Assembly: GCA_026991225.1 (NCBI GenBank)
Contig: JALXCB010000164.1
Coordinates: forward strand, 1 to 38,773
Length of the DNA: 38,773 nucleotides
Origin: Anaerolineae bacterium
Lineage (GTDB): Bacteria; Chloroflexota; Anaerolineae; J102
Direction: 5' to 3'
Shown here: positions 4,867-36,108 of the stretch, piece after piece
Layout of the letters: every line of letters starts with the position of its first letter
Position numbering within the stretch: the stretch's first letter is position 1
The notes under the pieces: generated by a model
Database searches by the model: none
What the model was told of the DNA's origin: nothing
What the model saw: the letters and a program-made list of their open reading frames with translations, nothing else
Program-made: the position numbers and the translations under genes

Positions 4867-5437
4867 GAACAGGCTCCTTTTCAGGTTCGTGGGTGCGGAG
4901 CCAGGTTTCATAATCGGGAACCACGGTCACGCCCAGGATCTTTTCCATGTGCTTCAGGGCGAAAGCGTGGGCCTCGGGGTCGAAGCTGGTCACCGCGTTG
5001 GCGGGGATGACGACGTTGTAATCGCGGTTGCGCAGGTCCGCGGTGGTAAACATCACGCAGATATCGGTAGCCACGCCCGTGACGATGACCATATCCGGCT
5101 CGATGCGCTTCAGCACCTCGTCCAGATTCGTGTCGAAGAACGCGCTGTAGCGGCGTTTGTTGATGACAATGGCGTTGCGGGCAAACTCAGCCAGTTCAGG
5201 GTCGATCTCCGTCTCCCACGTGCCCTTGATGCAGTGGGGCGGCCACATCTGAAATTCCTTGTCATCGGGGTCGTGCCAGTCGCGGGTGAAGATGAAATGC
5301 GCCCCCTTCGCGCCTTCCGATTTCAGGATCTCGCGGATGGGGCCGATGATCTCGCGCACGGAATCTCCGGCGTAGAGCGCGCCTTGGGGGTCGGTGAAAC
5401 CCCGTTCCATATCGATAACCATGACGACGGCCGTCAT
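4859..5437 (-). CDS. pncA: nicotinamidase (isochorismatase-fold)
   Basis: A 192-residue cysteine hydrolase that would convert nicotinamide to nicotinate. The catalytic triad is visible as D9 (VVMVIDME), K94 (VINKRRYSAF) and C127 (GVATDICV). Metal ligands are D53 and H55 (RDWHDPDD) and H68 (WPPHCIKGT). The pattern P-x-H-C-x-x-G-T separates nicotinamidases from isochorismatases. A strong GGAGGT site lies about 6 nt upstream. It is the first gene of a two-gene operon with pncB and sits behind a promoter and a palindromic operator. All active-site residues are intact. Confidence 0.93.
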   Translation of the reverse strand: MTAVVMVIDMERGFTDPQGALYAGDSVREIIGPIREILKSEGAKGAHFIFTRDWHDPDDKEFQMWPPHCIKGTWETEIDPELAEFARNAIVINKRRYSAFFDTNLDEVLKRIEPDMVIVTGVATDICVMFTTADLRNRDYNVVIPANAVTSFDPEAHAFALKHMEKILGVTVVPDYETWLRTHEPEKEPVHA

Positions 5438-5479
5438 GATTCACCTCCTTGTCGAGGGATGGGATAGGAAGGATAACGA

Positions 5480-5502
5480 CTTCGTGTAAAACTTACACTA
5501 AG
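5480..5502 (-). promoter_or_regulatory. palindromic operator in the pncA-pncB leader
   Basis: On the minus strand the half-sites CTTAGTGTAA and TTACACGAAG are separated by GTT; 9 of 10 positions pair. It lies just downstream of the -10 element, over the start of the transcript, where a repressor would block. Given the NAD salvage genes, an NAD-metabolism repressor such as NrtR or NiaR is the natural guess, but no regulator gene is nearby. Confidence 0.6.
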
Positions 5503-5512
5503 TTTCACCTGT

Positions 5513-5542
5513 ATTATAACACCCCCTGTCAAGTTTCCTCAA
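5513..5542 (-). promoter_or_regulatory. sigma-70 promoter of pncA-pncB
   Basis: On the minus strand TTGAGG (5542-5537) and a perfect TATAAT (5518-5513) are 18 nt apart. A TTGACA at 5532-5527 is too close (8 nt) to be the partner of this -10. Confidence 0.6.
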
Positions 5543-5604
5543 ATCAGAAAACGCGCATCGAGAGCATCCCCGCCCCACATTGCCAACTCGCCCGCTCTGT
5601 GCAA

Positions 5605-5835
5605 AAATAGTTTGGGTGCGTCCTAAATGAGTTGGCGTCGGCCGGACGCACTGGCCGAGTGAACTCGGGCTTTTTAGGCGCTTCGCGCCAATGGTCGACC
5701 TTCGTCGACCTGATTTCCATCATGAACATGGACGGCGGAGGCCGTCCACTGGCCGCAGGCCAGAAGAGTCCGACTTCAGTCGGTGAGTACTGCGGTGAAA
5801 CTCCTCAACCGAAAAAGGACACACCCAAATAGTTT
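5605..5835. mobile_element. MITE-like multi-hairpin element A with 9-bp target duplication
   Basis: The core runs 5614-5826 and is bounded by AAATAGTTT on both sides (5605-5613 and 5827-5835), an exact 9-bp direct repeat that looks like a target-site duplication. The termini GGGTGCGTCCT and AGGACACACCC are inverted repeats. Inside is a chain of short hairpins: CCGAG-TGAA-CTCGG, GGCG-CTTCG-CGCC, GGTCGAC-CTTC-GTCGACC, GGACGGC-GGAG-GCCGTCC, CTGGCC-GCA-GGCCAG and CCGACT-TC-AGTCGG. There is no credible open frame. The core matches elements B and C, while the termini match the 35420-36092 elements. Confidence 0.8.
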
Positions 5836-5838
5836 GCA

Positions 5839-5872
5839 GCCGTGAAAAGCCATCTCACCCACGTTTCACGGC
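5839..5872. repeat. short inverted repeat between elements A and B
   Basis: GCCGTGAAA (5839-5847) and TTTCACGGC (5864-5872) are perfectly complementary around a 16-nt loop. No gene is near enough to assign it a role. The rest of 5873-5941 is noncoding. Confidence 0.5.
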
Positions 5873-5941
5873 CCAGGCTTCCCGCGCCACAGCGGCGCGG
5901 AGCTTCATCACATCTCCGAATTCTGACTTCTACCTCTGAGC

Positions 5942-6165
5942 CTGGTTGACTGACAAATCTTGAGGCGTTCCTTTCCGGGCGCATTCACCGAGTAAACTCG
6001 GACTCTTTAGGCGCTTCGCGCCAATGGTCGCCCTTCGTCGACCTGATTTCCATCATGAACATGGACGGCGGAGGCCGTCCACTGGCCGCAGGCCAGAAGA
6101 GTCCGACTTCAGTCGACAGTATAGGCGACCGAAGCAGACCTAAACGCGTTTTGTCAGTCAACCAG
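5942..6165. mobile_element. MITE-like multi-hairpin element B
   Basis: A 224-bp element with terminal inverted repeats CTGGTTGACTGACAAA and TTTTGTCAGTCAACCAG. The core carries the hairpin series of element A (CCGAG-TAAA-CTCGG, GGCG-CTTCG-CGCC, GGACGGC-GGAG-GCCGTCC, CTGGCC-GCA-GGCCAG, CGACT-TC-AGTCG). Flanks are CCTCTGAGC at 5933-5941 and CCTCTGACC at 6166-6174 (8 of 9 identical), a possible target duplication, though the context is itself CTCTGA-rich. Confidence 0.75.
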
Positions 6166-6219
6166 CCTCTGACCTCTGACTTCTGACCTCTGATCCCCGA
6201 CCTCTATCTCTCGTCCGCC
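6166..6219. repeat. CTCTGAC-type short satellite before a start codon
   Basis: Several imperfect tandem units CCTCTGAC / CTTCTGAC run up to the next gene and end in a pyrimidine-rich tract. There is no ribosome site. Similar CTGA/CTGACC words precede the starts at 9298 and 21757. Confidence 0.5.
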
Positions 6220-9111
6220 ATGAACGCAAAAATCCAAGACTTCGCCCAGACCCTGCGCAAATACAGCGCCGCCGAGATCTACACCGATCTCGCCACCCGC
6301 ATCCTCTACAGCACCGACGCGTCCATCTACAAGATGACGCCCCTGGCCGTCGTCGTCCCCAAACATTACGATGACGTGCTGGCCACAGTGGAAACGTGCA
6401 TCGAATATGGCCTGCCTGTGCTCCCTCGCGGAGGCGGCTCCAGCCTGGCCGGACAGACCGTGGGCGAGGCTGTGGTCATCGACTTCACCAAATACCTGGA
6501 CCGCATCATTCGCGTGGACGGTGCCCAGCGCCGGGTGTTGGTGCAGCCGGGCCGCACCCTGGACCTGCTCAACAGGGAACTGAAGCGCTACGGGCTCATG
6601 GTCGGGCCCGACCCGGCCAGCAGTAACCGGGCCGTAGTGGGAGGCATTCTCGGCAACAACAGCACCGGCTCCCACAGCATCGTCTATGGCCGCATGGTGG
6701 ATCATATCCACTCCCTGCGCGTGGTCATGGCCGATGGCCGGGACGTGCGCTTCGGCCCGGCCACATGGGACCGCATCGACCAGCTTGCGCAGGGCGACAC
6801 CCTGGAGGCCCGGCTTTATCGCGACCTGCTCCCCCTCATCCGCCAGAACGCGGGCCTCATCGACGAGAAATTCCCCAAATACTGGCGGCGTTCGGGCGGC
6901 TACAACCTGGATTACCTGCGCAAACAACTGGATGGCGAAACCTTCAACTTCGCGCCCATCCTGGTGGGCAGCGAGGGCACGTTGGCCGTGTTCCTGGAAG
7001 CGGAGCTCAACCTCGTCCCCATCCCCCGCCACAAGGGCATCGCCATCCTGCACTTCGATTCACGTGAGGAAGCCTTCGAGGCCGTGCCCGGCCTGCTGGA
7101 ACTGCAACCCTCGGCCGTTGAACTCATCGACGACTATCTGCTGCGGCTCACCCGAACCTCGCCCGCGTGGAGCAAACGCCTCACCTTCATCGAAGGCGAT
7201 CCCATGGTCGTCTACATCGTCGAATTCGCCGGGGATGAGCCGGGCTGGGTTCCCCATCGCATGGAAGCCCTCAAACGACACCTCCAGCATGTGGGTTACA
7301 CGAACCCCGTGGTCACCATCACCGATCCGGTCGAGATGGCCAACGTGTGGGAGGTGCGTAAGGCCGGGCTCAACCTGCTCCTTTCCATGCGGGGCGACGC
7401 CAAACCGCTACCGGGCATCGAAGACGTGGCCGTGCCCCCCGAAAACCTGGCCGCGTACATGCGCGAGCTTTGGCAGATCATGGCCGACCGGGGCGTGGTC
7501 GCGGCCATGTACGCCCACGCCTCCGCCGGATGCGTCCACGTGCGCCCCATTCTGAGCCAGAAGAAAAAGGAAGACATCGACAACCTCATCTATCTGGTCA
7601 CCGAATCGGCCCGATTGGCCAAGAAATATGGCGGCGTGCCCAGCAGCGAACATGGCGACGGCCTCGCCCGCAGCTATCTCAACCCCGAATTCTTCGGGCC
7701 CGAGATCTACGATCTCTTCCGCAAAGTCAAGGGCGCTTTCGACCCCGACAACCTCATGAACCCGCACAAGGTCGTCGATCCCCTGCCGCCCGACCAGAAC
7801 CTGCGCTATGGCCCCGACTACCGCACCATCCCCATCGACCCCGTGTGGGACTGGTCTTACGATGGGAGTTTCGCCCAGGCGGTGGAAATGTGCAACGGCG
7901 CGGGGGTGTGCCGCAAGCTGGAAGTGGGCGTCATGTGCCCCTCCTTCAAAGCCCTGCGGGATGAGATGCACAGCACCCGCGGGCGGGCCAACCTGCTGCG
8001 ATCCGCACTTTCAGGCGAACTCCCCGGCGGTCTCGACAATCCCGACCTGCATGAGGCTCTGGACCTCTGCCTGGGCTGCAAGGCCTGCAAGAGCGAATGC
8101 CCTTCCAGCGTGGACATGACCAAGCTCAAGACCGAGGCCCTGGCCCAGCACTATCAGGAACACCGCCCGCCCATCCACAAATTGGTATTTGGACACATCC
8201 ACGAACTCTCCCGCTGGGGCAGCGCCCTCGCCCCCCTGTCCAATTGGGTGATGAACTTCGGCCCCACCCGCTGGGCCATGCAAAAGGCCCTTCACATCCA
8301 TCCCGACCGGCGCTTCCCCGTATTCCATCGCAAAACCTTCACCGCCCGCTTCCGCGACCACCGCCGGCAACGCCCCCAGAATGGCGCAGACCGCAAGGCC
8401 GTTCTCTTCGTGGACACCTTCACCGAATTCAATGAGCCCCACGTGGGCATGGCCGCGGTCAAGGTGCTGGAAGCCGCGGGCGTGGCCGTGGAGATCACCC
8501 CGGCCATGACCTCGGGCCGCCCCGCCCTCTCCCAAGGCCTGGTTCCCTACGCCAAAAAAGCCGCGGCCCAGGTGGTGCAGACGCTCCTCCCCCACGCCCG
8601 CGCCGGCGTCCCCATCATCGGACTGGAGCCCAGCAGCCTCCTCACCATCCGCGACGACTACCCCGACCTGCTTCCGGGCGACGACGCCCGTCTGGTGGCC
8701 CAAAGCGTCCTCCTTTTCGACGAATATCTGACCCAACTGCTGGAGGAAGAGCCTCGGGCGCTGCCCTTGCAGAAGACCCATACGCACTTCCTGGTCCATG
8801 GTCACTGCCATCAAAAAGCGCTGGTGGGCGAAGACCCCATCTTCAAGGTGCTGGATGCCGTGCCGGGCGCAGGGGCCGCGAGCACGGACGCGGGCTGCTG
8901 CGGCATGGCGGGCGCGTTCGGCTACGACGCCGATCACTACGAGGTGAGCAAGACCATCGCCCACGACCGCCTCATCCCCAGCATTCAAAACCACAAGAAC
9001 TCGGTCATCGTGGCCAACGGCACCTCCTGCCGCCACCAGATCATCGAACTCACGGGCCGGGAGGCGGTGCACCTGGCCGTGGCCCTGGCCGACGCCCTGC
9101 ACCTGTTCTGA
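6220..9111 (+). CDS. FAD/Fe-S oxidoreductase, GlcD-GlcF (D-lactate dehydrogenase-like) fusion
   Basis: A 963-residue two-module protein that would oxidise a 2-hydroxy acid such as D-lactate or glycolate and pass electrons through Fe-S clusters to the respiratory chain. The N-terminal half is a PCMH-type FAD domain (LPRGGGSSLAGQTVG at about 69-83, GPDPASSNRAVVGGILGNN) with the matching FAD-oxidase C-terminal cap (EHGDGLARSYLNPEFFG). The C-terminal half is GlcF-like: CNGAGVC at 558-564 with C573-P, then CLGCKACKSECP (C617, C620, C623, C627), then the paired Cys-rich CCG-type segments HGHCHQKAL and AGCCGMAGAFGY. All cluster ligands look intact. The exact substrate cannot be read from sequence. 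It stands alone, preceded by a short satellite and no Shine-Dalgarno. Confidence 0.88.
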   Translation: MNAKIQDFAQTLRKYSAAEIYTDLATRILYSTDASIYKMTPLAVVVPKHYDDVLATVETCIEYGLPVLPRGGGSSLAGQTVGEAVVIDFTKYLDRIIRVDGAQRRVLVQPGRTLDLLNRELKRYGLMVGPDPASSNRAVVGGILGNNSTGSHSIVYGRMVDHIHSLRVVMADGRDVRFGPATWDRIDQLAQGDTLEARLYRDLLPLIRQNAGLIDEKFPKYWRRSGGYNLDYLRKQLDGETFNFAPILVGSEGTLAVFLEAELNLVPIPRHKGIAILHFDSREEAFEAVPGLLELQPSAVELIDDYLLRLTRTSPAWSKRLTFIEGDPMVVYIVEFAGDEPGWVPHRMEALKRHLQHVGYTNPVVTITDPVEMANVWEVRKAGLNLLLSMRGDAKPLPGIEDVAVPPENLAAYMRELWQIMADRGVVAAMYAHASAGCVHVRPILSQKKKEDIDNLIYLVTESARLAKKYGGVPSSEHGDGLARSYLNPEFFGPEIYDLFRKVKGAFDPDNLMNPHKVVDPLPPDQNLRYGPDYRTIPIDPVWDWSYDGSFAQAVEMCNGAGVCRKLEVGVMCPSFKALRDEMHSTRGRANLLRSALSGELPGGLDNPDLHEALDLCLGCKACKSECPSSVDMTKLKTEALAQHYQEHRPPIHKLVFGHIHELSRWGSALAPLSNWVMNFGPTRWAMQKALHIHPDRRFPVFHRKTFTARFRDHRRQRPQNGADRKAVLFVDTFTEFNEPHVGMAAVKVLEAAGVAVEITPAMTSGRPALSQGLVPYAKKAAAQVVQTLLPHARAGVPIIGLEPSSLLTIRDDYPDLLPGDDARLVAQSVLLFDEYLTQLLEEEPRALPLQKTHTHFLVHGHCHQKALVGEDPIFKVLDAVPGAGAASTDAGCCGMAGAFGYDADHYEVSKTIAHDRLIPSIQNHKNSVIVANGTSCRHQIIELTGREAVHLAVALADALHLF

Positions 9112-9152
9112 AAATAACGTGGCGTTGGTTTGCAAAAGCAACTCGAAGCCCA

Positions 9153-9217
9153 CGTCGAGCGAGCCTGCTACGGACGTGATGCGTGATCCGTGAGGTCGTT
9201 ACGCATCACGCATTACG
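9153..9217. repeat. GTGATGCGTGA-type inverted repeat, copy 1
   Basis: Begins CGAGCGAGCCTGCTACGGAC and ends GTTACGCATCACGCATTACG. The internal arms CGTGATGCGTGATCCGTGA and TTACGCATCACGCATTACG form an imperfect hairpin. A closely similar copy lies at 21648-21720, also shortly before a gene. The rest of the spacer to 9297 ends in pyrimidine-rich sequence. Confidence 0.7.
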
Positions 9218-9297
9218 TTTCACGGCCCTGGCCGCCTCGCTCGACGCCGCCTTGACGAGACCAACGTCTCCCTGCCCCCTGACCTCTTCCACCCCCC

Positions 9298-10266
9298 ATG
9301 CGCCTCGCCCTCCTCGCCGACATCCACGGCAACATCCACGCCCTGCAGGCGGTGGCCGCCCGGTTGGAACAACTCCAGCCGGATGCGGTCATCGTCGTGG
9401 GGGACCTGATCAACGCCGTTCCCTTCAGCAGCCAAGTGGTGGATTTCATCCGTGAGACCGACTGGATCGTATTGCGCGGGAATCACGAGTTCTATTACCT
9501 GGACTTTGTGGGCGGCCGGGCGCCCGACGACTGGCATGACCCCATGCGCTGGGGCCAGCTCCACTGGCTGGCCGAGCACCTGCGCCCGGACCAGGGAGCC
9601 TACCTCGCGGCCCTGCCCGACGACCTGACCCTGTTCTATCCCCACACCGAGCCCGTGCGCCTGGCCCACGGCGCGCCCGGCAACCATCGCATGGGCTTTA
9701 TGCCCGACATGCCCGCTGAGCGCATCGCCGCGGCCCTGGCGGGCGTCGAGCAGGCCACCTTCATCAACGCCCACACCCACCAACAGATCGACCGCATCAT
9801 CACCCAGCCCGCGCCCGCGGTGGAGGAGACGGGCGATCCCGCCTTCTATTTTGAGAATGGCCAGCCGCACGCTCCCCGAACATGGCATGTCATCAATCCC
9901 GGCAGCGTGGGCCTGCCCCTGAATGGCGATCCGCGGGCCCAATTCGCCATCGTCGAAAGCGTCTCGCCCGCAGCCATCCCGGGCGGCTGGCGGGTGAGCC
10001 ATCACCGCGTGGAGTACGACCGTCGTCCCGCCCTGGAGGCCTACCATGCCAGCGGGATGCTGGCGCAGGGCGGCGTCATCTCCGAACTGTTCTATTGGGA
10101 ATTGGTCACCGCCCGGTGGGAGATCCCCTATTTCTTCATGTGGCGGCGAGAGCATCTGCCCCAGGATGGCGTCTCCTTTGAGGACGCATTCCGCGCATAC
10201 AAAGAGGCGACCGGGCGAGAAGCATTCGTCAGGGAGCGGGACCCGCTGCGCCGCCAGCGCAGATGA
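9298..10266 (+). CDS. calcineurin-like metallophosphoesterase
   Basis: A 322-residue soluble phosphoesterase with the complete dimetal motif set: D-I-H-G-N (D8, H10), G-D-L-I (D36), G-N-H-E (N62, H63), an AHGAPGNH segment, NAHTHQQ and the closing NPGSVG. This is the YfcE/MJ0936-type fold, extended at the C-terminus by about 80 residues (after residue 240) that I cannot match. Substrates in this family range from phosphodiesters to cyclic nucleotides, so no specific activity is claimed. The gene stands between a repeat-rich spacer and element C with no obvious operon partner. There is no Shine-Dalgarno, only a CCTCTTCCACCCCCC tract before the ATG. Confidence 0.85.
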   Translation: MRLALLADIHGNIHALQAVAARLEQLQPDAVIVVGDLINAVPFSSQVVDFIRETDWIVLRGNHEFYYLDFVGGRAPDDWHDPMRWGQLHWLAEHLRPDQGAYLAALPDDLTLFYPHTEPVRLAHGAPGNHRMGFMPDMPAERIAAALAGVEQATFINAHTHQQIDRIITQPAPAVEETGDPAFYFENGQPHAPRTWHVINPGSVGLPLNGDPRAQFAIVESVSPAAIPGGWRVSHHRVEYDRRPALEAYHASGMLAQGGVISELFYWELVTARWEIPYFFMWRREHLPQDGVSFEDAFRAYKEATGREAFVRERDPLRRQRR

Positions 10267-10360
10267 GCAAGACGCCGGGGCGCCTTGCCCCCTCCAACCT
10301 TCCCCCGAGCTGCGCTCGGCGGGGAGGCCATCCTCTTCAGAACGAAGTTTCTGTCCATGG

Positions 10361-10585
10361 CTGGTTGACTGACAAATCTTGAGGCTTTCCTTTCCGACCG
10401 TATTCACCGAGTAAACTCGGGCTCTTTAGGCGCTTCGCGCCTGTGGTCGACCTTCGTCGACCTGATTTCCATCATGAACATGGACGGCGGAGGCCGTCCA
10501 CTGGCCGCAGGCCTGGAATGGGACGACTTCAGTCGACAGCATAGGCGACCACAGCAGACCATAACGCGTTTTGTCAGTCAATCAG
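10361..10585. mobile_element. MITE-like multi-hairpin element C
   Basis: A 225-bp relative of element B with the same left terminus CTGGTTGACTGACAAA and a right terminus TTTTGTCAGTCAATCAG (one change). The core hairpins are those of B. Flanking nonamers (TGTCCATGG and CGTTTGACG) do not match, so any target duplication has been lost or rearranged. The remaining parts of 10267-10659 show nothing else. Confidence 0.75.
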
Positions 10586-10659
10586 CGTTTGACGTTTGAC
10601 GCCGGTTGCAAACTCGCCCCATCATAAGCCCGACGAATCTTTCGCGAATGACGCCACGC

Positions 10660-11187
10660 TCATTTGCGACTCAGCGGCGAATGGGGGCGGGTGACCACGT
10701 TCCGATCCTGGTTCCTGCGCTCCAATCGGATGCGCCGCCGTTCAGCAGCCTCCTCATAGCGTCGCTTCTCGTCCTCGGTTTCGGGGACAAGCGGCGGAAT
10801 GGGAACCCGGTTGCCGTCGGCGTCCAGGGCGACGAAGGTGAGATAGGCGGAGGAACAATGACGGCGTTCACCAGTCAGAGGATTTTCCGCCTCGACGCGC
10901 ACGCCCACCTCCATGCTGGTGTGGAAGGCGCGGTTCACCTGGGCCTTGAGGATGACCACTTCGCCCTGATAGATAGGGGCGCGAAAGTGAAGATCATCCA
11001 TGCTGGCGGTGACGACGATCTGTCGGGCGTGACGCGTGGCGGCAATGCCCGCACAGATGTCGGTCCAGGCCATCACCTGACCGCCAAAGGCCGTGCCAAG
11101 CGCATTGGTATGCGTGGGAAGGACGATCTCCGTCATCTCCACGTAGGATTCGCAAGCAGGTTTGGGGGAAAGATCATGGTCGGCCAT
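10660..11187 (-). CDS. acyl-CoA thioesterase (hotdog fold, YciA/BFIT type)
   Basis: A 175-residue hotdog-fold thioesterase that would hydrolyse acyl-CoA in the cytoplasm. The segment PTHTNALGTAFGGQVMAWTDICAG is the family core: the N-A-L-G-T-x-F-G-G-Q-V-M-x-W-x-D stretch holds the catalytic Asp at about residue 43. DDLHFRAPIYQGEVVILKAQV follows, then the strand R-H-C-S-S-A-Y-L-T-F-V-A-L-D. The charged C-terminal 40 residues are a variable tail. An AAAAGGTGAT ribosome site lies just upstream. The gene is divergent from the sugar transferase, and a 9-bp inverted repeat sits in the shared spacer. Chain-length preference is not visible. Confidence 0.85.
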   Translation of the reverse strand: MADHDLSPKPACESYVEMTEIVLPTHTNALGTAFGGQVMAWTDICAGIAATRHARQIVVTASMDDLHFRAPIYQGEVVILKAQVNRAFHTSMEVGVRVEAENPLTGERRHCSSAYLTFVALDADGNRVPIPPLVPETEDEKRRYEEAAERRRIRLERRNQDRNVVTRPHSPLSRK

Positions 11188-12806: not shown

Positions 12807-12893
12807 GCCACGAAGACGCGAAGAAAAGCGAAGGCACGACGTGTTTTCTTTATTTTTTCTTCGTGTCTTCGAAAAACTTCGAGCCTTCGTGGC
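12807..12893. repeat. CCACGAAG-family intergenic hairpin
   Basis: The left arm GCCACGAAGACGCGAAG and the right arm CTTCGAGCCTTCGTGGC are complementary with few mismatches and enclose a T-rich loop. It follows the sugar transferase stop, so it may serve as its terminator. Related words occur at 1929-2042 and 30192-30273. Confidence 0.7.
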
Positions 12894-13012
12894 TTTTGGC
12901 GGCCTAAAGTCAAGTGCGTTAGCAGTTACGGCTTGGGGTTGAAAAAAGGTGAAGAGTTGTTCATTTTGAGGGGATCAGGCGGTCGAATTGGGGATTTCCT
13001 GACGTCTCAGGC

Positions 13013-19066: not shown

Positions 19067-19222
19067 GTTGGCCAGCTCCACCCGGCGCTGAAGGATATTG
19101 TTGGCAAACCCCAAGCAGGCTACAAAACGACGCCGGGTGAACCCGGCTTTGGGCGCGGGCTGGCTCTGAAAGCCCCCTTGAGGGGGCGCCAGGCGCAACG
19201 CGCCCATAACTTGGGACGCACC
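19067..19222. repeat. degraded multi-hairpin element D, right terminus intact
   Basis: A partial relative of the 35420-36092 elements. It keeps GCCGGG-TGAA-CCCGGC, GCCCCC-TTGA-GGGGGC, GGCGC-AAC-GCGCC and the right terminus ending TTGGGACGCACC. The first hairpin is broken (CCCGGCGC-TGAA without its partner arm) and the left terminus is lost. Its right end lies 16 nt upstream of the holB -35. Confidence 0.75.
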
Positions 19223-19238
19223 CCTGAAAGGGCGAGAA

Positions 19239-35419: not shown

Positions 35420-35639
35420 GGGTGCGTCCTAAAATTTTGGCCAATCGCGTTGTCATCAGGAATTTGGTCATGCGGGCTCCACCCGGCGCTGAAGCGCCGG
35501 GCTACGCAACCACGCCGGGTGAACCCGGCTTTGGGCGGGGGCTGGCTCTGAAAGCCCCCTTGAGGGGGCGTCGTTTCGTAGCCCGGAGGTTCACCTCCGG
35601 GGCGTCAGGCGCAACGCGCCCATAATTTGGGACGCACCC
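35420..35639. mobile_element. multi-hairpin element F, tandem copy 1
   Basis: A 220-bp non-coding element. Termini are GGGTGCGTCCTAAAATTTTGG and the inverse CCATAATTTGGGACGCACCC. Inside are CCCGGCGC-TGAA-GCGCCGGG, GCCGGG-TGAA-CCCGGC, GCCCCC-TTGA-GGGGGC, CCCGGAGG-TTCA-CCTCCGGG and GGCGC-AAC-GCGCC. It is preceded by GCATTCTTT (35411-35419) and followed by the 9-bp spacer GAGAGAAAG (35640-35648). Short ORFs that cross it are products of the repeat. Confidence 0.85.
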
Positions 35640-35648
35640 GAGAGAAAG

Positions 35649-35864
35649 GGGTGCGTCCTAAAATTTTGGCCAATCGCGTTGTCATCAGGAATTTGGTCAT
35701 GCGGGCTCCACCCGGCGCTGAAGCGCCGGGCTACGCAACCACGCCGGGTGAACCCGGCTTTGGGTGCGGGCTGGCTCTGAAAGCCCCCTTGAGGGGGCGT
35801 CGTTTCTAGCCCGGAGGTTCACCTCCGGGGCGTCAGGCGCAACGCGCCCATTTGGGACGCACCC
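35649..35864. mobile_element. multi-hairpin element F, tandem copy 2
   Basis: Nearly identical to copy 1 but 4 bp shorter, with small deletions near the fourth hairpin and the right terminus (CCCATTTGGGACGCACCC). It is followed by the same 9-bp spacer GAGAGAAAG (35865-35873). Confidence 0.85.
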
Positions 35865-35873
35865 GAGAGAAAG

Positions 35874-36092
35874 GGGTGCGTCCTAAAATTTTGGCCAATC
35901 GCGTTGTCATCAGGAATTTGGTCATGCGGGCTCCACCCGGCGCTGAAGCGCCGGGCTACAAAACCACGCCGGGTGAACCCGGCTTTGGGTGCGGGCTGGC
36001 TCTGAAAGCCCCCTTGAGGGGGCGTCGTTTCGTAGCCCGGAGGTTCACCTCCGGGACGCCGGGCGCAACGCGCCCATAATTTGGGACGCACC
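35874..36092. mobile_element. multi-hairpin element F, tandem copy 3
   Basis: The third copy, with all five hairpins intact, ends GGACGCACC. It is followed by TCATTCTTT (36093-36101), which matches GCATTCTTT left of copy 1 in 8 of 9 positions, so the whole array is bracketed by a probable target duplication. A promoter -35 begins 16 nt after its end. Confidence 0.85.
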
Positions 36093-36108
36093 TCATTCTT
36101 TTGGGAAG

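Follow-up and report, generated by a model that had tools for sequence, protein, structure and literature searches.

A six-hairpin core shared by MITEs with three types of ends in an Anaerolineae genome, probably a transposase-less IS200/REP-type mini-element

A 213-base unit in the genome of an Anaerolineae bacterium, here termed element A, is very likely an ISKra4-type MITE that holds a tnpA-less Y1 mini-element, whose core is common to three pairs of ends and later recombined among its carriers. This reading, drawn from sequence comparison, builds on features that can be read directly: the ends, the target duplications, the homology of the cores, parent elements in related genomes, Y1 transposase genes flanked or split by the same hairpin array, and mosaic elements. 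The analyzed window, 38,773 nt long, corresponds to contig C164 in a draft genome of 3.87 Mb (G000, 201 contigs).

Element A (5614–5826, plus strand) is non-coding and directly abutted on both sides by AAATAGTTT (5605–5613 and 5827–5835). The two copies match at 9/9 positions, as reported in a first-pass annotation of this sequence; two fixed flanking positions would share an exact 9-mer by chance with a probability of about 4e-6. The element starts with GGGTGCGTCCTAAAT and ends with AAAGGACACACCC; its left end, of a type termed F, is GGGTGCGTCCTAAATGAGTTGGCGT (5614–5638, plus strand) and its right F end reads CTCAACCGAAAAAGGACACACCC on the plus strand (5804–5826, minus orientation). Core 1 (5655–5783, plus strand) is an array of six hairpins, arranged as three plus three inverted. 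These comprise hairpin 1 (CCGAGT-GA-ACTCGG, 5655–5668), hairpin 2 (GGCGC-TTC-GCGCC, 5677–5689), where other copies bear nested inserts, hairpin 3 (GGTCGAC-CTTC-GTCGACC, 5693–5710), hairpin 4 (TGGACGGC-GGAG-GCCGTCCA, 5729–5748), hairpin 5 (CTGGCC-GCA-GGCCAG, 5749–5763) and hairpin 6 (CCGACT-TC-AGTCGG, 5770–5783). Linker 3 (5711–5728, plus strand), the place occupied by tnpA where the transposase gene is present, carries the S-type allele TGATTTCCATCATGAACA.

Two further MITEs on the plus strand of the window, elements B (5942–6165; core 1 at 5988–6115) and C (10361–10585; core 1 at 10407–10535), have cores homologous to that of element A between different, S-type ends (CTGRTTGACTGACAAA). Element B lies 115 bp from element A in the same orientation and is flanked by CCTCTGAGC and CCTCTGACC (8/9 identical; 5933–5941 and 6166–6174), while no target duplication was found in the flanks of element C (3/9). 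The F ends of element A recur at 35420–36093 (plus strand) on three tandem elements with the 9-mer GAGAGAAAG between them. They share with element A the first ~11 bp and a TTGGC-like motif, and their inner arms and core (core 2) are unlike those of element A. Both relationships, of the termini with this array and of the core with elements B and C, had been noted at first pass and hold. A truncated F/core-2 element (19076–19223, plus strand) retains its right end only. Tandem F-ended elements spaced by GAGAGAAAG occur at three separate loci, namely the one in the window, L097 on contig C16 (172–387 and 8261–8606) and L094 on contig C194 (2090–2766), as if the units moved or were amplified as a block.

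We sorted ends and cores genome-wide, as the first-pass annotation had advised, using 129 elements drawn from sampled stretches of the genome, and recombinant combinations were found. End-sequence searches of the genome returned 62 + 58 F-type and 56 + 57 S-type matches, with 4 + 2 and 1 + 0 for reversed control patterns. The core had been described as moving with two kinds of ends; it does occur on differing ends, which here are of three types, the third being G (GGGTGCGTTTCAATTTGGGGGC) on elements with core 1. The catalogue contains 75 F, 40 S and 13 G elements and one chimera with a G left and an S right end. Flanks were identical at 9/9 positions in 36 of 75 F, 30 of 40 S and 11 of 13 G elements. 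F ends enclosed core 1 (27), core 2 (39), core 3 (4), fusions (2) or unclassified cores (3), S ends enclosed core 1 (35), core 1b (2) or core 4 (3), and all 13 G elements had core 1; the chimera carries a homologous core as well. Identical copies at different exact 9-bp duplications comprised three G copies as well as pairs of G and of S elements, and the G copies indicate that the end-plus-core unit transposed as a whole. S elements often sit in short ACGTCA or TGACGTTT-like repeats (for example, L019, L024, L077, L109 and L148), which suggests a target preference. Additionally, a possible fourth end, GTGAGCGTCCATAAATAACTTCC, was seen beside core 1 in genomes G002 (L300), G005 (L301) and G008 (L317); L301 looks like a chimera with an F left and a fourth-type right end.

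Parent elements for all three end types were identified in other genomes. F ends bound a 1,463-bp ISKra4-family IS in a congeneric genome (L188, 40–1502), to whose end family the left end of element A belongs and whose transposase scored 256 bits against NF033572 (cut-off 205). A second ISKra4-family IS, which is frame-split, is bounded by G ends (L214). At a greater distance, in G038 (L165/L173) and G049 (L268), genomes from other families of the class, S ends enclose IS4-family genes. The G038 parent, spanning two contigs, reached 140 bits with NF033591, below the cut-off of 152, and 39.8 bits with PF01609, above the cut-off of 23; Y2R3E6K is readable in its transposase sequence (DDE/YREK type). 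The same core is found between ends of different transposase families, ISKra4 type for F and G and IS4 type for S, which supports the earlier suggestion that two transposases mobilize a shared core. By their match to IS ends and their 9-bp duplication, F-ended elements are ISKra4-family MITEs. The S ends of elements B and C likewise identify IS4-family MITEs, with ends of an IS4-type IS and a 9-bp duplication as in the IS10 subgroup, although at the level of single elements the duplication is 8/9 for B and absent from C; IS10-subgroup members of IS4 have CT ends and 9-bp repeats (PMC2266710). No matching duplication was found at the G049 S parent or at L188. Searches of the 201-contig draft itself for ISKra4, IS4 and DDE_Tnp_1 transposases found none, an absence that counts less because multi-copy IS are easily lost in such a draft, and this genome yielded no full-length parent with F, G or S ends. 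A 1,480-bp S pair with matching flanks (L071) was considered as a full-length parent and rejected, as it encloses a non-transposase gene and the G/S chimera. The coding sequence of each ISKra4 transposase is divided between two frames close to a CTTTTTCCCCC run (L188, ~449–480; L214, ~2435–2457), a candidate programmed frameshift.

Exchange between elements was assessed in an alignment of 74 core-1 elements, where linker alleles are end-specific with exceptions. Element A is the sole F element with an S linker-3 allele, the G linker-3 allele is carried by L098 (F) and L077 (S), and the F1-type linker-5 allele GGCCAGAAGAGTCC occurs in no S element but B. These mosaics and the chimera, which has one G and one S end (L071, 2709–2980), support the module exchange postulated at first pass. 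Over hairpins 1–6, element A differs from its nearest S elements at 7–12 of 129 positions and from typical F1 elements by ~20 differences, 11 of which represent one linker-length difference. Of the original proposal that element A bears the core of B and C on F ends, an S-like internal patch remains and a whole foreign core does not, since the six-hairpin core often exists between F ends in a version of its own. Element A is an F1 element with F arms and an internal S-like patch, probably converted by its neighbour B. Short-tract gene conversion would account for the patch most simply, in the presumed direction from B to A. Recombination with some other S element is conceivable, if doubtful: L010, located elsewhere, shows five differences to element A over hairpins 2–6, the same number as B, and is slightly closer to A than B is over hairpins 1–6. 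Against it, GCGCCAATGG is private to A and B among the 74 elements and, together with the F1 allele that B alone carries among S elements, argues for two-way exchange with B.

Hairpin-forming inserts of ~50–70 bp are nested in core 1 of elements with different ends, at two recurring positions. They were observed in hairpin 2 of L031, L032, L040, L042, L044, L070–L072, L079 and L257 and between hairpins 4 and 5 of L032, L040, L044 and L084, and possibly represent a further small mobile hairpin. Their presence is polymorphic within end families, in F, G and S for the hairpin-2 loop and in F and S for the site between hairpins 4 and 5. F and S elements each exist with and without the insert, four combinations that can only have arisen by exchange or repeated insertion. 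The hairpin-4 loop is inverted from GGAG to CTCC in L042 and L093 (both F) and L244 (G), elements of two end families, which suggests intrastrand inversion at the palindrome. Furthermore, hairpin 1 of one S element (L020, 1286–1672) contains a MITE-like insert with ends GTAACTGCTAAGG and an apparent duplication, AAACTCGGG; its interior resembles inverted repeats at 1929–1980 and 12843–12894 of the window.

Core 1 extends well beyond these MITEs. A covariance model detected it in 43 of the 120 genomes searched from this class, often as tandem copies lacking the F, G and S ends; copy numbers are lower bounds because scoring covered at most ~28 candidates in each genome. Order and size of the six hairpins are kept, while the stems have changed compensatorily. 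Among 12 representatives with <75% identity, 377 of 394 pair cells are Watson–Crick and double changes number 49 versus a maximum of 19 in shuffles, in a test where the alignment is fitted to the covariance model, favouring pairing, and the shuffles ignore relatedness. Folded as single-stranded DNA, the core of element A yielded z = −6.7; in an alternative fold, the arms of hairpin 1 pair with those of hairpin 6, which makes the array an inverted 3 + 3 dyad. In genome G029, whose assembly is a single contig, the array occurs in tandem without F, G or S ends, and around the tandem arrays of this genome and its relatives we found no terminal inverted repeats beyond hairpin self-matches. In the genome of element A, core 1 was located ten times outside catalogued F, G and S elements, six times at Y1 loci and otherwise truncated or insert-bearing, in a sample that was chosen by ends and Y1 genes and is biased accordingly. 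The sequence 5′ of hairpin 1 varies and often ends in CTGG or TTTG.

The Y1 loci indicate what core 1 may be. The genome has five Y1 genes, and core-1 hairpins flank those on contigs C23 (L392) and C167 (L393). At L393 and, in congeners, at L405 and L410, the order is hairpins 1–3, tnpA, hairpins 4–6. Across 40 non-redundant Y1 loci, a core-1 array was present within ~700 bp at all nine loci of one clade (46–100% protein identity to L392), two of them with weak matches (L381, 37 bits; L382, 28 bits), versus none of the 31 others, among which L398 has one match 1.1 kb away. Fisher’s exact probability is ~4e-9 when related loci are treated as independent, and 1.3e-5 for a subset of 20 loci alone. 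Core-2-type hairpins flank a different Y1 clade (L394, L399 and L401). The Y1 proteins resemble solved IS200/IS605 transposases, with the HVH motif (HUH histidines), Tyr and Gln invariant. L392 scored 68.5 bits against the IS200 model NF033573 (cut-off 55), and a Y1 protein scored 28 bits against the REP transposase model NF047646 (cut-off 80). The GTAG/CGTC tag at the hairpin foot is absent from core 1, and GTAG lies next to the outer hairpins of core 2. Because core 1 differs in both tag and transposase subgroup from REP elements, we did not file it as REP. From the arrays that flank or are split by Y1 genes of one clade, we read core 1 as an end-only mini-element of an IS200/REP-type transposon, and core 2 likewise, from its hairpins beside another clade, as that of a second such transposon. 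Core 1 is therefore probably an IS200/REP-type mini-element that lacks tnpA and is nested in MITEs with IS ends. The hairpin payload of the first-pass annotation is shared as claimed, and it is not neutral but most likely such a mini-element. Nesting, which that annotation had named as a refuting scenario, becomes part of the answer alongside exchange if the core is such a mini-element.

We propose the following scenario. An ISKra4 transposase supplied in trans would recognize the GGGTGYGTCC... ends of element A and would have inserted it, generating the 9-bp duplication, and IS4 transposases would mobilize S-ended elements in trans. The core would be a Y1 (HUH) mini-element of IS200/REP type, consisting of two three-hairpin ends that remained once tnpA was lost from its place between hairpins 3 and 4, with hairpins that the Y1 protein presumably recognizes. 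Related mini-elements appear to lie inside G (second ISKra4-type) and S (IS4-type) MITEs, giving at least three DDE-type end pairs. The core may have entered the MITEs by nesting or recombination, in a nesting order that is presumed; empty sites for insertion of the core were not found among F, G or S elements, which leaves nesting through Y1 transposition putative. Once dispersed, homologous cores would have recombined in short tracts, the S-like patch of element A most likely coming from B. In a tentative extension, the six-hairpin mini-element would be doubly mobile: Y1 would insert it in single-stranded form into MITEs from different DDE families, these would disperse it by means of their own ends, and the single-strand transposon would spread through repeated changes of its double-strand-transposon carrier.

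Alternatively, the core could be a functional RNA or a transcription-terminator cluster that MITEs acquired as useful to them or their host, which we consider unlikely. Six ordered hairpins with compensatory changes would fit such a role, and clusters of short hairpins have been proposed as transcription terminators (PMC8355165). However, mismatches over all 2,904 pair cells are 31 G–T and 28 A–C, a near-equality that is expected of a palindrome in DNA, not of a stranded RNA, and leaves a stranded RNA constraint unsupported; in the 12 divergent representatives the ratio is 10:4, from small counts. The model matches the array, a dyad, on both strands, core 1 was rejected as a described RNA family after a search of window positions 5000–11000 gave no Rfam match at E values up to 1, and the Y1 clade association accounts for the hairpins without an RNA role. 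That template-switching self-correction alone kept the palindromes similar, with convergent sharing among end types, is highly improbable: the inverted GGAG loops and the inserts nested in hairpin loops do represent intrastrand events at hairpins, and self-correction may contribute to palindrome upkeep, but common order, spacing, private variants and linkers require common descent, and the shared linkers, being non-palindromic, refute it as the sole explanation.

Returning to the preferred reading of a Y1 mini-element within DDE-type MITEs, several known systems are similar in part. The PATEs of Haloquadratum (PMC3119063) are also tnpA-less IS605-type derivatives reduced to palindromic ends and heavily nested with MITEs in the same genome. 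There, however, MITEs insert into PATEs, whereas here MITEs with three end types enclose the mini-element, which has three hairpins per end. REP/BIME sequences and REPtrons (TnpA-REP; PMC8266576, PMC3733652) share inverted hairpin units, a variable linker, tandem copies, arrays flanking a Y1 gene and clade-specific hairpins; core 1 differs by its missing GTAG/CGTC tag and by a Y1 protein that scores as IS200 and not as REP transposase. ISKra4- and IS4-family MITEs agree in end sequences, 9-bp duplications and lack of coding capacity, yet the interior here would stem from a transposon of another mechanism and not from the parent IS. The BrickBuilt MITE of Porphyromonas gingivalis (PMC4596501) also has a repetitive payload between MITE ends, in that case a minisatellite of one MITE family that is not common to several. 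Our literature search found no paper on this repeat in the phylum and no description of a single-strand-transposon remnant inside several DDE MITEs with exchange. Nested mini-elements are already known; the combination of three systems in a 213-base unit appears to be new.

In these elements, the sharing and exchange of one interior among non-autonomous members of different transposon families can be observed in nature and counted. That interior is identified as what is probably left of a single-strand transposon, its ends only, and is kept across a bacterial class. The origin of MITE interiors and their passage from carrier to carrier can now be tested, as can the role of hairpin arrays beside Y1 transposases as transposase substrates versus regulatory RNA.
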